In this document: positions 42,910 through 48,452 of the stretch, piece by piece
How the letters are laid out: each line of letters opens with the position of its first letter
How positions within the stretch are numbered: the stretch's first letter is position 1
NCBI RefSeq assembly: GCF_019968905.1
Contig: NZ_CP079946.1
Location: forward strand, 2,728,001-2,792,000
From: Corallococcus sp. EGB
GTDB taxonomy: Bacteria; Myxococcota; Myxococcia; Myxococcales; Myxococcaceae
DNA: 64,000 nt
Direction: 5' to 3'
The notes under the pieces: model-generated
Database searches by the model: none
The model's input: only the letters and a program-made list of their open reading frames with translations
Told to the model about the DNA's origin: nothing
Program-made: the position numbers and the translations under genes

Positions 42910-45690
42910 TCAGGACAGCCGCAGACCCGCCGGCAGCGTGTCGCCGAGCGCCCGGGCTTCGTCCGCCGCCTCCAGGGCCACCACCTCACGCACCATCCGC
43001 ACCCAGGTGTCCGCGGCCTTCGCGGCCCCCAGCGCCTGGGCCGTGCGCTCGCGCAGCGCCGGATCCAGATCGCGTGTGCGGTCGCCGGTGAGGCGCGCCA
43101 GCTGCGCGGCGGCGAAGGGGGCACCGTCCACCTTGCGCAGGTCCAGCGACAGGAGCAGCTCCAGCCACGCCTCCGCCGTCTCCACGTCCACGACCTTGTG
43201 GCTGCTGCCGTACAGCGGCACGCGCGCGCCCAGCCGGCCCAGGGCCCACGCCCACGGGCCGCCGGAGCGGGAGTCGGCCTTCACGCGCGCGGCGATCCAC
43301 CGCCCCACCTCCGCCTTGTCGCCCGGCGCCAGGTGCTCCAGCGAGGCGACCGTGCGGATCATCTCGTCCAGGCCTTCCGGTTGGATGCCCTTGAGCTTGC
43401 CGCCTTGCGTGGGCGCGTCCGGGGGCACGCGCCGGGCCAGGTGCGGCTGGAGGTAGCCGTACAGCTTCTGCTGCTGCGCTTCGGTGAGGCCGCCCGCGAT
43501 GCGGCGCCACATCACCCAGAACTCCGTCCACACCGCCTTGTCTGTGTGGTGCTGCACCAGCGCGTCGAAGAGGCTGAAGGTCTGCTCCGCGCGCCAGCCG
43601 TCCAGCGGATAGCCGAAGCCGGGGCGCAGGCAGAACCCGGTGAGGCTGTAGAAGACGCGCTCGTGGTCATCCGAGCGGCGGCGCTTGCTCGCGCCCGCGT
43701 AGAGCGTGCTCCACAGCTCGCGCAGCACCGGCACGCGCCACGTCTCACGCGGGCCCAGCACCTTCTCCAGCGTGCGCGACAGCTGCTTCACGTCCTTGGG
43801 GCCCAGGGGCAGCGGCTTGTTGCCGTAGACGCGCTCCACGTTGTCCTTCGCCTCGGCGAAGCGCGCGGGCATGGACTCGGTGACGGTCAGCTCGTGCGAG
43901 CCGCCGGTGCCGCGCAGCTCGAACTCCAGGCGCCAGCGCTCGTCCGCGATGTCCGACACGCAGAACAGCTCCAGCGTGCCGATCTCCGTGAGCGCCGCCT
44001 GCAGGTGCACCGGCACCTCGCTGACCTTGCCGGACGCGCCCTTGAGCAGCGTGTGGATGGGCGGCAGCGGCTTCAGGTCCTCCGCCAGCGGCACCAGGTC
44101 TCCGGGCTTGTCGATGCGGTCGCTTGTCGTGGAGTAGAGCGCGAACTGGACCGGCCGGCCCAGGGTGAGCGTGAAGGGGCGCTCGCCCAGGTCCACCTTC
44201 TGGCCCTCCTCGAAGCCGCGGGGAATCAGGCACAGCGTGGGCTGCTCCGCGCTGTCCGGGCCCCGCTGCAGGCCCACGTAGTACGCGCGCGCCGCTCCGC
44301 CGCCAATGCGCAGGCCGTGCCCGCGCCGCACCAGCCCGTAGTACGCCGCGCCCCGGGCCACCGCGAGCTCCAGCGACTCGTGCTTGAGCAGCGGGATGCG
44401 CGGCGCCTGCGGCCACCACGCGGACAGCGCTTCCACCAGGCGCGCCGAAATCTGCGGCGAGTTGAAGACGCCGCCGTTGAGCAGGATGGCGTCCGGGCGG
44501 GGCAGGGCGCCTTCATGCGCTGGCGCCTCGCCCAGCGCGGCGAAGCCCGCCGCCGCGTGCTGCGCGAGGAACGCCGCCAGGTGCCGCGTGACGGCGGGGT
44601 CCTGCACGTACGGCAGGCCCAGCTCCTGGAGCGCCATGCGCGCCGAGCGCCGGGGCCGCTCCCCGGGCGCGGACAGGGGGAAGAAGCCGTCCAGCACCAG
44701 CGCTTGCGCCTCGTCGCGGCCCAGCTCCGTGGACAGCGTGCCGCCCAACAGCCGGCTGCCCTCGCCGATGAGCGACACGCCGTACTTCTCCGGCGGCGCG
44801 CGCCCCAGGAGCTCTTCCTTCGCGGTGCGCGCGGCCTGGATGGCCTGCGTCCACTGCGTCGCGGACAGGCGGCGGCCGTTCTGGGTGAGCTTCTCCTCCA
44901 TGCGCCGGGCGAGCGCCGCGTCCATGTTGTCGCCGCCCAGCATCAGGTGGTCGCCCACCGCCAGCCGCCGCAGCATGGGCCCTTCCGGCGACACGCCCGC
45001 GTGCACCAGCGTGAAGTCCGTGGTGCCGCCGCCCACGTCCACCACCAGCACCAGCCGCACCTGGGACAGCGTCTGCTCCAGGTCGGCGCGGTGGCGCGCC
45101 GTGTAGTCGTAGAAGGCCGCCTGCGGCTCCTCCAGCAGCGTGAACTTCTCCAGCCCCGCCTTGCGCGCCGCGCTCACCGTGAGGGCGCGCGCCGCCTCGT
45201 CGAACGAGGCGGGGACGGTGATGACCACCTCCTGCTTCGACAGGGGCTCGTCCGGGTGGGCGTAATCCCATGCCCGGGCCATGTGCGTGAGCAGCAGGGC
45301 GGACGCGTCCACCGGGGACAGCTTCCGCACGTCCGCGGGAGCGCCCCACGGGAGGATGGGCGCGGAGCGGTCCACGCCGGGGTGACACAGCCAGCTCTTC
45401 GCGGAGGCCACCAGCCGGCCCGGCACGCGCGCGCCCTGCCAGCGGGCCAGCTCGCCCACCACGTAGGGGCCGCCGTCGTCGCCCCAGGGCAGGCGGAGCA
45501 CCTCCGGCGCCAGCTCGTGGCCGGCGGGGACGTAGACGGTGGACGGCAGGAGGGCGCGCGGAGCCACCTCGCCCTGGCGGACGAGCTGGGGCAGGGGGAA
45601 GTCCTCGACGGGAGCCCCCGAGCCCTTCGTTGGATCCACGGATGCCACCGCGCAATGGGTGGTGCCCAGGTCGATGCCGACGATTCGCAT
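42910..45690 (-). CDS. Hsp70-family protein with long C-terminal extension (DUF3731-type)
   Basis: 926 residues. The N-terminal Hsp70 ATPase domain has IDLGTTHCAVAS (phosphate 1), VITVPASFDEAARALTVSAARKAGL, LLEEPQAAFYDY, LVVDVGGGTTDFTLV (phosphate 2), GGDNMDAALARRM and ILLNGGVFNSPQISARLVEAL (adenosine site). No regular DnaK substrate domain or EEVD-like tail follows; instead about 450 residues run from 480 on, containing a beta-rich part and a helical part (KQLSRTLEKVLGPRETWRVPVLRELWSTLYAGASKRRRSDDHERVFY), which I assign to DUF3731 from memory. It is the third gene of an operon with another Hsp70 and a DUF2760 protein; 25 bases separate it from the gene upstream. Probably a specialised chaperone; client unknown. 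Confidence 0.88.
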   Translation of the reverse strand: MRIVGIDLGTTHCAVASVDPTKGSGAPVEDFPLPQLVRQGEVAPRALLPSTVYVPAGHELAPEVLRLPWGDDGGPYVVGELARWQGARVPGRLVASAKSWLCHPGVDRSAPILPWGAPADVRKLSPVDASALLLTHMARAWDYAHPDEPLSKQEVVITVPASFDEAARALTVSAARKAGLEKFTLLEEPQAAFYDYTARHRADLEQTLSQVRLVLVVDVGGGTTDFTLVHAGVSPEGPMLRRLAVGDHLMLGGDNMDAALARRMEEKLTQNGRRLSATQWTQAIQAARTAKEELLGRAPPEKYGVSLIGEGSRLLGGTLSTELGRDEAQALVLDGFFPLSAPGERPRRSARMALQELGLPYVQDPAVTRHLAAFLAQHAAAGFAALGEAPAHEGALPRPDAILLNGGVFNSPQISARLVEALSAWWPQAPRIPLLKHESLELAVARGAAYYGLVRRGHGLRIGGGAARAYYVGLQRGPDSAEQPTLCLIPRGFEEGQKVDLGERPFTLTLGRPVQFALYSTTSDRIDKPGDLVPLAEDLKPLPPIHTLLKGASGKVSEVPVHLQAALTEIGTLELFCVSDIADERWRLEFELRGTGGSHELTVTESMPARFAEAKDNVERVYGNKPLPLGPKDVKQLSRTLEKVLGPRETWRVPVLRELWSTLYAGASKRRRSDDHERVFYSLTGFCLRPGFGYPLDGWRAEQTFSLFDALVQHHTDKAVWTEFWVMWRRIAGGLTEAQQQKLYGYLQPHLARRVPPDAPTQGGKLKGIQPEGLDEMIRTVASLEHLAPGDKAEVGRWIAARVKADSRSGGPWAWALGRLGARVPLYGSSHKVVDVETAEAWLELLLSLDLRKVDGAPFAAAQLARLTGDRTRDLDPALRERTAQALGAAKAADTWVRMVREVVALEAADEARALGDTLPAGLRLS

Positions 45691-45715
45691 ACGCCTCCGG
45701 TGTGCGGGGCCCCTT

Positions 45716-47578
45716 CTACTCCTTCATGCGCACGTTGAGCTCCAGCTTCCAGCGCCCGTCGCCGTTCTTCTCCAGGCACCGCAGCTCCAGCGTGCCCACC
45801 TCCGTCACCGCCGCCTGGAGGTTCACCGGCGTCAGGTCGCCAAAGGGCGTGGCCTGCCCGGGCAGCGTCGTCTCGATGGGCGCCACCTCCTCCAGCCCCC
45901 CCGACGCCAGCTCCGACTCCACGTCCTCGAGCATCTCGCCCACCTTGTCGTCGCGCCGCACGGACGACGCGAAGAAGCGGAAGCTGGTGGGTTCCCCGGT
46001 GACGAGCCCGAACTCCTGGGGCGGCACGTCCGCCTGCGTCCCTTCCTCCATGCCGAAGGGCGCAACGCACAGCGCCTTCACGGGCGGCTCCATGCCCGGC
46101 ACCGCCGGCATCGCCGTCTCCACGCCCACGTAGTAGGCGCGCGCCGTGCCGCCGCGGATGCGCAGGCCGTGGCCCTGGCGCACCCAGCCGTAGTACGCCG
46201 CGCCCCGCGCCACCGCGAGGTCCAGGTCGGAGCCCTCCAGCTCCTTCGCTGGGGGCGCCCCTTCCGCGGCGAGCCACTGGTTGAGGACCTCCATCACCCG
46301 GTCCTTCAGCGGCCCGGCCTTGAAGACGCCGCCGTTGAAGAGCACCGCGGTGGGGTGCAGGAAGCCCTTTCCCGTGACGTCCACCGGCGAGTCCGCGCTG
46401 GCCGCCAGCGCCTGGGCCTGCCGGGTGAGGAACGCCGCCAGGTGCTTCGTCACCGCCGGGTCCTGCGCGTACGGCAGCGCCATCTGCGCCAGGCCCGTGC
46501 GCCGGGCGGTGCGCGGCAGGTCCGCCACCTCCGTCACCGGGAAGAAGCCGTCCGTGAGGACGCGGTCCAGCTCCTCGCGCGTCAGCTCCGTGCGCAGCGT
46601 GCCGCCGATGAGCGACGAGCCGCGGCCCGGAATCGCGATGGGCACCTTCTCCAGCGAGGCGTCCGCGTACAGCGTCTCCTTCGCGTGACGGCAGCCGTAG
46701 GTGAGGCCGTTGAACTGCCACGCGTCCAGCTTGCGCCCCTCGGCCGCCATCCGCTGGTTGAGGGTGTGCGCCAGGGCGAGGTCCATGTTGTCGCCGCCCA
46801 ACAGGATGTGGTCGCCCACCGCCACGCGCAGCAGCTCCAGGTCGCCCTCGCGGTCCTTCACGGTGATGACGGAGAAGTCGGACGTGCCGCCGCCCACGTC
46901 CACCACGAGGATGACCTCCCCGGGCTGCACCTGCTTGCGGAAGTTCTCCCCCATCGCCTCCAGCCACGCGTACAGCGCGGCCTGCGGCTCCTCGAGCAGG
47001 GTGATGTGCTCGATGCCCGCCGCCTTCGCGGCCTCCAGCGTCAGGTCGCGCGCCGCCGCGTCGAAGGACGCCGGGACGGTGACGATGACCTCCTGCTGGG
47101 CCAGCGCGTTGCCGGACTCCTCCCGGGCGCTCGCGAAGGTCTGGTCCCACGCCTCCTTCAGGTGGCGCAGGTAGCGCGCGGACGCATCCAGCGGCGACAC
47201 GCGCTGCACCTCCGGCGGCGCCTGCCAGGGCAGCAGCGCCGAGCGCCGGTCCACCCCCGGGTGCGACAGCCAGCTCTTCGCGGACGACACCAGCCGCGTG
47301 GGCACCTTCGCCCCGTGCGAGCGGGCGAAGTCACCCACGATGACGCCCGGCTCCGCGTTCCACGGCAGCGCGAGGCTGCCCTCCGGGAACTCCTGCGCGC
47401 TGGGGATGTAGAGGAAGGAGGGCAGGAGCGGACGGGCCTCCACGGTGCCGGGCGCCGTCACCTGCGGCACGGGCAGCATGGACTGGGAGGGGCCGCGCGG
47501 CTTGCCGTCCTCGAGGTTGAAGTAGGACACCGCGGAGTGCGTGGTGCCCAGGTCGATGCCGATTGCGTATCGGGCCAT
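45716..47578 (-). CDS. Hsp70-family protein (DnaK paralogue)
   Basis: 620 residues. Hsp70 ATPase motifs: IGIDLGTTHSAVSYF, VIVTVPASFDAAARDLTLEAAKAAGI, LLEEPQAALYAW, ILVVDVGGGTSDFSVI, GGDNMDLALAHTL and VLFNGGVFKAGPLKDRVMEVL. A short beta-rich domain replaces the normal substrate-binding domain: FRFFASSVRRDDKVGE and LQAAVTEVGTLELRCLEKNGDGRWKLELNVRMKE at the end. It shares with its neighbour the motif AVTEVGTLEL / ALTEIGTLEL and PWxAxP, so the two arose by duplication. No J-domain or GrpE gene is visible nearby. Middle gene of the DUF2760-Hsp70-Hsp70 operon. Confidence 0.9.
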   Translation of the reverse strand: MARYAIGIDLGTTHSAVSYFNLEDGKPRGPSQSMLPVPQVTAPGTVEARPLLPSFLYIPSAQEFPEGSLALPWNAEPGVIVGDFARSHGAKVPTRLVSSAKSWLSHPGVDRRSALLPWQAPPEVQRVSPLDASARYLRHLKEAWDQTFASAREESGNALAQQEVIVTVPASFDAAARDLTLEAAKAAGIEHITLLEEPQAALYAWLEAMGENFRKQVQPGEVILVVDVGGGTSDFSVITVKDREGDLELLRVAVGDHILLGGDNMDLALAHTLNQRMAAEGRKLDAWQFNGLTYGCRHAKETLYADASLEKVPIAIPGRGSSLIGGTLRTELTREELDRVLTDGFFPVTEVADLPRTARRTGLAQMALPYAQDPAVTKHLAAFLTRQAQALAASADSPVDVTGKGFLHPTAVLFNGGVFKAGPLKDRVMEVLNQWLAAEGAPPAKELEGSDLDLAVARGAAYYGWVRQGHGLRIRGGTARAYYVGVETAMPAVPGMEPPVKALCVAPFGMEEGTQADVPPQEFGLVTGEPTSFRFFASSVRRDDKVGEMLEDVESELASGGLEEVAPIETTLPGQATPFGDLTPVNLQAAVTEVGTLELRCLEKNGDGRWKLELNVRMKE

Positions 47579-47665
47579 ATCGGTCTGGAACCCCGGGAAG
47601 GGGCCTTGTGGTTCCTCGAAGGAAGGGGACTTCGGAGGATGCGCCGGCTGCTCACCAGGCGGGCA

Positions 47666-48280
47666 TCAGGCCAGCTCGACCTCCGCCGGGGCCAGCACGC
47701 GCGGCTCCATGGCGGGGCTGACGGATGGGAACTTCACCTCCGTGGTCACCCAGCCGTGGTGCCGGAGCGTGCCGCCATAAGGAGGCTCGCCCGCGACGTT
47801 GCCGGTCAGCCGGATGCGCTGCGCGTCGAAGCCCGGGGGCACCGTCACCGCGTCGCCCTCGCCCTGCGGCAGCACCGGCTGGAGCGTGAGGTACTGGTGC
47901 ACCACCTTGCGGCAGCCCTCATGGACGATGCGCGCCGCCGCGCCCACGTCCGCGTCCGGGAAGGCCGCGACGTTCTCCTGCACGAAGTCCAGGAAGCGGC
48001 CTTCGCGCTGGAGCATGGCCAACAGCGACAGGGCGCTGGCGTGCTCGCGCTCGGGCGGCGGGGGAGGGGGCGCGACGGGGGCCTGGACGGCGGGCGTCCT
48101 CACCGGCGGCAGGGCCTGCAGGTCCCCTGACGGAAGCTCCTTGAGCTGGCCGGCGTCATAGGCGCGGCTCGTCGGGAGCACGGCCTGCGCGAATTCGCGG
48201 GACACGAGGCAGCGCCAGAAGCAGAGCCAGGCGAGCCAGAAGCGGGCGAAGAACGACAGGGAGGCGGACGGGTCGGTCAT
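47666..48280 (-). CDS. DUF2760 domain protein
   Basis: 204 residues from ATG 48280; the upstream extension to 48337 is rejected because it runs into the tRNA terminator. The N-terminus has a hydrophobic helix (SLSFFARFWLAWLCFWRCLV, about 7-26), which probably binds the membrane, then a Pro-rich linker and the DUF2760 core from about residue 75: LLAMLQREGRFLDFVQENVAAFPDADVGAAARIVHEGCRKVVHQYL, LPQGEGDAVTVPPGFDAQRIRLTGNVAGEPPYGGTLRHHGW. DUF2760 genes typically sit beside the two atypical Hsp70 genes, as here. It is the first gene of the operon. The family's biochemical role is not known to me. Confidence 0.85.
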   Translation of the reverse strand: MTDPSASLSFFARFWLAWLCFWRCLVSREFAQAVLPTSRAYDAGQLKELPSGDLQALPPVRTPAVQAPVAPPPPPPEREHASALSLLAMLQREGRFLDFVQENVAAFPDADVGAAARIVHEGCRKVVHQYLTLQPVLPQGEGDAVTVPPGFDAQRIRLTGNVAGEPPYGGTLRHHGWVTTEVKFPSVSPAMEPRVLAPAEVELA

Positions 48281-48336
48281 CGGCCCCGGATAACAAAGCC
48301 GGAAGCCTTTGCAATTCGCCAATGGCCCGAAATGCA

Positions 48337-48366
48337 AAGGGCCTCACGGTTTCCCGTGAGGCCCTT
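48337..48366 (-). terminator. Strong intrinsic terminator after tRNA-Ala
   Basis: AAGGGCCTCACGG (48337-48349) and CCGTGAGGCCCTT (48354-48366) make 13 perfect pairs with a four-base loop. Read on the minus strand it begins 11 bases after the tRNA 3' end and is followed by TTGCATTTC. It should end the tRNA transcript before the DUF2760 operon. Confidence 0.85.
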
Positions 48367-48376
48367 CGGTACTTCA

Positions 48377-48452
<76 letters not shown>

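Follow-up and report, generated by a model that had tools for sequence, protein, structure and literature searches.

A co-inherited DUF2760-Hsp70-Hsp70 gene triplet in Corallococcus sp. EGB as a candidate chaperone module with replaced J-domain contacts

Three adjacent genes were analyzed in a stretch of 64,000 nucleotides from Corallococcus sp. EGB (contig NZ_CP079946.1, positions 2,728,001 to 2,792,000; hereafter the window). They encode a DUF2760 protein and two divergent Hsp70 proteins, here called Hsp70-A and Hsp70-B, the latter ending in a DUF3731 region. The triplet is kept or lost jointly in at least three bacterial phyla, and that it represents one common system is well supported. As an Hsp70 machine, the module is a known kind of system; what is new here is that, in the sequences surveyed, the ATPase residues are invariant while the D393-N170-T173 triad and the hydrophobic linker of DnaK, along with most of its J-domain contacts, are replaced across phyla. 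We give a probability of roughly 0.6 to the reading that the three proteins form one chaperone module, in which DUF2760 would regulate a J-domain-independent Hsp70 pair and Hsp70-B would be an Hsp110-like or regulatory partner.

The first-pass annotation of the window had described three genes on one strand with spacers of 87 and 25 bases, and both the open reading frames and the Pfam matches agree with this layout, PF00012 scoring above its cut-off in Hsp70-A as well as in Hsp70-B (window positions):

47666-48280, minus strand: DUF2760 gene, 204 amino acids (PF10816, E 1.9e-50, 170.3 bits against a gathering score of 25)
45716-47578, minus strand: Hsp70-A gene, 620 amino acids (PF00012, E 5.7e-19)
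42910-45690, minus strand: Hsp70-B gene, 926 amino acids (PF00012, E 8.2e-17, and PF12531/DUF3731)
42913-43863, minus strand: all-alpha C-terminal region of Hsp70-B (residues 610-926), which contains DUF3731 and occupies the place of the Hsp70 lid
Residues 673-925 of Hsp70-B: PF12531/DUF3731 (E 2.7e-93, 312.9 bits against a gathering score of 25)

The genome is a single contig of 9.43 Mb with 21 matches to PF00012, some of them fragments of the same gene, and DUF2760 and DUF3731 are each single-copy in it. The nearest relative locus is that of Corallococcus sp. AS-1-6, with 95% identity in the DUF2760 protein.

Joint inheritance of the three genes

DUF2760 and DUF3731 were profiled over 787 whole genomes from three phyla, where both families were found in 182 genomes, a single family in ten and neither in 595. 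The first-pass annotation had proposed one specialized system conserved as a neighborhood, and had named homologs occurring alone as often as together as an outcome that would count against it; the ratio of 182 to ten, with many of the pairs unlinked, bears the proposal out. Among the 195 Myxococcota, 122 carry both families, one DUF2760 only, seven DUF3731 only and 65 neither, and at least three of the eight single cases resemble fragmented assemblies with the gene at or near a contig end. The corresponding numbers in the 398 Pseudomonadota are 27, one, zero and 370. In a third phylum of Lentisphaerae/Verrucomicrobia type (that of genome G196; 194 genomes) they are 33, zero, one and 160, and the lone DUF3731 match is a remnant of 100 residues that contains a stop. 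Fisher's test of co-occurrence gives p of about 1e-166, a value which is descriptive only because the genomes are related.

Retention after operon break-up is stronger evidence than this statistic. Seventeen of the 122 myxococcotal pairs lie on separate contigs and two more are 6-9 kb apart, and 15 of the 33 pairs in the third phylum are not within 6 kb, although some of the different-contig cases may reflect assembly breaks. Seven genomes of this third phylum keep all three genes in dispersed positions; in one of them (G686) the genes are found at 4157770, 2101491 and 3899516 of the same contig. In eight Myxococcota genomes with a split locus that were checked, Hsp70-A adjoins DUF2760 and Hsp70-B lies elsewhere. 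DUF3731 is present in all twelve genomes examined from 14 chosen loci, among them the genomes of seven loci where the retrieved flank lacks Hsp70-B. The stop and start codons of DUF2760 and Hsp70-A overlap by 4 nucleotides in 48 of 82 loci, and DUF2760 is usually translationally coupled to Hsp70-A. No fourth neighbor conserved across genera was found in 85 flanks, where the clusters represent lineage-specific synteny or generic proteins.

The three genes might instead encode separately useful stress proteins which co-occur only through inheritance or transfer of the operon. The triplet is indeed mobile: Bradyrhizobium plasmids that were typed as conjugative carry it, as do megaplasmids of Burkholderiales, and the 11 plasmid records with DUF2760 all carry full-length Hsp70-A, ten of them also full-length Hsp70-B. 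Joint retention after break-up of the operon in at least 30 genomes, together with the seven in which all three genes are apart, makes this explanation very improbable.

Domain architecture of Hsp70-A and Hsp70-B

Hsp70-B was modeled with AlphaFold2 from a 44-sequence alignment (mean predicted local distance difference test score, pLDDT, 85.6). The model consists of a nucleotide-binding domain (NBD, residues 1-455), a beta-rich region at about 460-590, which in the model is the beta subdomain of the substrate-binding domain (SBD-beta), and an all-alpha region (610-926). Residues 1-596 superpose on DnaK and BiP to the end of SBD-beta (about chain residue 505; Z 32-37 over about 470 residues) and the structural matches are limited to this part, while a sequence search of the PDB gave no relative of the C-terminal region. 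Hsp70-A is homologous to Hsp70-B over its full length, by which it is assigned an SBD-beta as well, and it ends directly after this subdomain. The canonical alpha lid is therefore missing in Hsp70-A, and in Hsp70-B its place is taken by some 317-320 all-alpha residues that include DUF3731. Thus the earlier description of both proteins as lacking a normal substrate domain holds for the lid but not for SBD-beta, and the 450-residue extension ascribed to Hsp70-B shrinks to about 320 residues after SBD-beta in the model. Apparent substrate-pocket changes at M404 and V436 in a MAFFT alignment were dropped, as this region aligns ambiguously.

Neither protein is a canonical DnaK or HscA, since the NCBIfam equivalog models for prok_dnaK and HscA score 62-91 bits against cut-offs of 708-823. 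In a joint tree that also included E. coli DnaK, HscA and HscC as well as 12 further Hsp70s from this genome, Hsp70-A and Hsp70-B form one clade on long branches with support of 100/100, and all other members fall outside it.

Catalytic residues and the J-domain interface

The residue survey covered 91 proteins (47 Hsp70-A and 44 Hsp70-B), with positions given in E. coli DnaK numbering. The equivalents of K70, E171, T199 and D201 are invariant in all 91, and this conservation points to ATP binding by both proteins. In DnaK the interdomain linker is locked by contacts of D393 with N170 and T173, and a D393A variant is unable to reach the ATP state (PMC12406271), whereas J-domain docking involves binding of D35 of the HPD motif to R167 and Q378, binding of H33 to L391 and contact of P34 with P419 (PMC8215388). 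N170 is replaced by glutamate in every one of the 91 proteins and T173 by glutamine in 88, and D393 is kept in none. L391 and P419 are replaced throughout Hsp70-A and Hsp70-B, Q378 in all members sampled, and R167 by threonine in 36 of 47 Hsp70-A proteins. The LLL of the linker has become RGG in Hsp70-A and GGG-like in Hsp70-B (RIRGG in the Hsp70-A of this window, where DnaK has VLLLD), and the net charge of the linker is +2.2 in Hsp70-A and +0.9 in Hsp70-B as compared to about -1.5 in the other Hsp70s of the genome.

The absence of J-domain and GrpE genes from the locus, remarked on in the first-pass annotation, extends to the window and to the 85 related flanks, in which none was found. Canonical J-domain-driven Hsp70s are recognized by the above contacts and a linked J-protein; judged by residues and flanks, Hsp70-A and Hsp70-B are predicted to fall outside this group. 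A more conventional account would have them as a specialized pair that uses ordinary J-proteins and GrpE encoded elsewhere, with DUF2760 as a client-side or membrane adaptor. Unlinked co-chaperones are common among Hsp70s, the PilZ-DnaK chaperones of Myxococcus xanthus have candidate J/GrpE co-chaperones encoded elsewhere (PMC10313047), and half of the Hsp70-B proteins keep R167. Such a pair would still have to accommodate the replacement of N170, T173, D393, L391, Q378 and P419 in nearly all Hsp70-A and Hsp70-B proteins, when R167, N170, T173, D393 and P419 are kept by DnaK, HscA and HscC and by the 12 further Hsp70s of this genome that were examined, and we consider this account rather doubtful.

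The DUF2760 protein

In the DUF2760 model (pLDDT 89.9), residues 10-42 fold into a helical hairpin at the N-terminus, after which come a Pro-rich linker and a domain with both helices and beta structure; the conserved domain spans about residues 76-204, up to the C-terminal APAEVEL. The protein had been described as membrane-anchored. In this genome the hydrophobic hairpin has a borderline Kyte-Doolittle hydropathy (1.41) and no clear transmembrane helix, so that the description holds better for several homologs, in which transmembrane helices are unmistakable (about 2.9-3.5). DUF2760 is thus probably a small, membrane-associated helper. Comparison with the PDB gave no sequence match and a best Foldseek E of 0.62 and best VIA Z of 3.6, and neither structural search yielded a credible match to a J-domain, GrpE or other known fold. 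A scan of viral contigs found no DUF2760 relatives.

APAEVEL or a close variant forms the C-terminus in 78 of 85 homologs, and at most one residue follows the motif in 81 of 85. This nearly invariant tail (window 47669-47692) recalls a docking tail. A C-rich CCCCCTCCCCCGCCGCC stretch lies in the part of the gene for the Pro-rich linker (window about 48050-48075), and many draft assemblies end inside this linker, with the match beginning at contig position 1-40.

DUF2760 could also be the main client rather than a regulator, that is, a membrane protein stabilized by a dedicated Hsp70-A/Hsp70-B pair. A dedicated client would be expected to show the same strict co-inheritance and the same coupling of its translation to that of Hsp70-A, and in M. 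xanthus two DnaK-type chaperones (CsdK1 and CsdK2) stabilize the small protein CdbS (PMC10313047). On the other hand, the confident fold, the invariant residues and the nearly invariant C-terminal peptide are more like those of a working partner, and we regard the client role as unlikely. The protein has no catalytic motif that would mark it as an obvious effector.

Published observations

No paper naming DUF2760 or DUF3731 was found among the open-access papers searched. The first-pass statement that the function of the set is not described does not extend to MXAN_5323, a M. xanthus protein of 925 amino acids which is the apparent Hsp70-B orthologue and for which a deletion has been published. 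According to passages of PMC8265645, the deletion lowered sporulation and survival of peroxide while motility, predation and temperature tolerance were normal, and MXAN_5323 failed to complement E. coli dnaK; these passages mention no operon. Three Myxococcus Hsp70-B proteins in our set have the same length of 925 amino acids.

The Vibrio cholerae genes VC1373-1375, labeled 'DnaK-related' (PMC9201469, PMC5816637), may represent the same triplet. The VC1375 promoter is activated by HapR (PMC10328515).

Comparison with other Hsp70 systems

Hsp70-A and Hsp70-B resemble DnaK of the DnaK-DnaJ-GrpE system in their intact K70/E171/T199/D201 site and SBD-beta, and the Hsp70-B model superposes on DnaK and BiP. 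They differ from it in the missing nearby J-domain and GrpE genes, in the replaced VLLLD linker and D393-N170-T173 triad, in the lid (absent in Hsp70-A, DUF3731 in Hsp70-B) and, for MXAN_5323, in the failure to rescue E. coli dnaK (PMC8265645). In the HscA-HscB and HscC-DjlC systems, as in the triplet, a diverged Hsp70 has a narrow task and a co-factor of its own, often one linked to the membrane, but their Hsp70s keep R167, N170, T173, D393 and P419, use J-domain partners and lie in a clade separate from Hsp70-A and Hsp70-B.

The eukaryotic Hsp110/Grp170 proteins, which pair with an Hsp70, offer a parallel in composition, as a smaller Hsp70 is combined with a large one that has a hydrophilic, divergent linker and an extended region at its C-terminus. 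Hsp110 linkers generally retain the D393 equivalent (PMC6843406), in contrast to the 44 Hsp70-B proteins, where this position is never aspartate; in addition, the C-terminal domain of Hsp70-B is DUF3731 and Hsp70-A and Hsp70-B belong to one clade. In fungal Ssb-Ssz1-Zuo1, two Hsp70s are likewise combined with one tethering co-factor (PMC8476630), but Zuo1 is a ribosome-bound J-domain protein, whereas DUF2760 shows no J-domain and its N-terminus is of the membrane type. Finally, CsdK1/CsdK2-CdbS of M. xanthus is a myxobacterial system of two non-canonical Hsp70s and a small protein, distinguished by PilZ domains, cyclic di-GMP and heat induction (PMC10313047).

Surrounding sequence and unusual relatives

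A tRNA gene lies directly upstream of the triplet and is context outside the module:

48377-48452, minus strand: tRNA-Ala (CGC)

It is followed on the same strand by a terminator-like hairpin at 48320-48365 (GGCCTCACGG-gaaa-CCGTGAGGCC, then TTT). A pattern scan, which is poorly suited to high G+C, gave no sigma-70-type promoter or terminator patterns. PADLOC returned just weak matches to one candidate model and found no defense system.

Among the plasmid-borne relatives (pCC829_3, pCB82_1 and pTs485), the Bradyrhizobium triplets adjoin trb conjugation genes or lie upstream of groES-groEL, and the DUF2760-Hsp70-A pair of Thiodictyon adjoins anti-phage genes. A record titled 'Comamonas sp. KCTC 72670' (BNCN01000001.1) has 75-91% identity to the proteins of the window and myxobacterial synteny, and it is probably a mislabeled myxobacterium. 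A question of binning or naming also arises for a metagenome-assembled genome titled Akkermansia muciniphila (CAMAUZ010000153.1), the DUF2760 protein of which is 69% identical to that of the window. In a Verrucomicrobiales metagenome-assembled genome, Hsp70-A and Hsp70-B appear to be split into separate frames, with the pieces of Hsp70-B about 2 kb apart, which may be due to decay, insertion or assembly error.

A possible mechanism

In the reading that we prefer, Hsp70-A and Hsp70-B would be ATP-driven Hsp70s with an NBD and SBD-beta that have given up canonical control by J-domains and GrpE. As the J-domain contacts have been lost, the switch is probably a different one: the glutamate/glutamine pair at positions 170 and 173 and the positively charged, Gly-rich linker may stand in for D393-N170-T173 and VLLL, the elements which couple NBD and SBD and are read by J-domains. 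The concerted change of N170 to glutamate and of the linker to positive charge suggests that a latch with swapped charges has taken over from D393-N170. DUF2760, which its hydrophobic N-terminus presumably tethers to the membrane, would take the place of the J-protein by targeting and activating Hsp70-A, perhaps through an invariant helix and the APAEVEL peptide. Hsp70-B would be the large partner of Hsp70-A, comparable to Hsp110 or Ssz1, and might serve as exchange factor, holdase or scaffold. The output would probably be protein maintenance near the membrane, under stress or in stationary or developmental phase. A narrower version, in which a separate Hsp70 machine has a rebuilt NBD-SBD switch where the charge-reversed linker meets the N170E/T173Q surface, and membrane-associated DUF2760 with APAEVEL as docking peptide replaces the J-protein and drives the lid-less Hsp70-A and its DUF3731 partner, is put forward tentatively.

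Several points weigh against the preferred reading. The genomes counted share ancestry and are therefore not independent observations. J-proteins and GrpE are expected elsewhere in the host, and with R167 retained in 22 of 44 Hsp70-B proteins some residual J-domain contact by Hsp70-B is possible. Because DUF2760 has no recognizable fold match, the case for an activator is one of linkage only. Hsp70-B is structurally not specifically nearer to Hsp110 than to DnaK, and the apparent orthology of MXAN_5323 is read from its length and class, not from its sequence. Binding, ATPase or localization data were found for none of the three proteins.

Significance

Control by J-domains is generally treated as near-universal among Hsp70s. 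If the preferred reading is true, this widespread clade would be a natural experiment on the essential parts of Hsp70 allostery, in which the ATPase site has been conserved while the J-domain surface and the linker lock have been uniformly replaced, and the triplet would provide functions for two Pfam domains of unknown function. As genetically workable myxobacteria carry the triplet, this prediction is directly testable.

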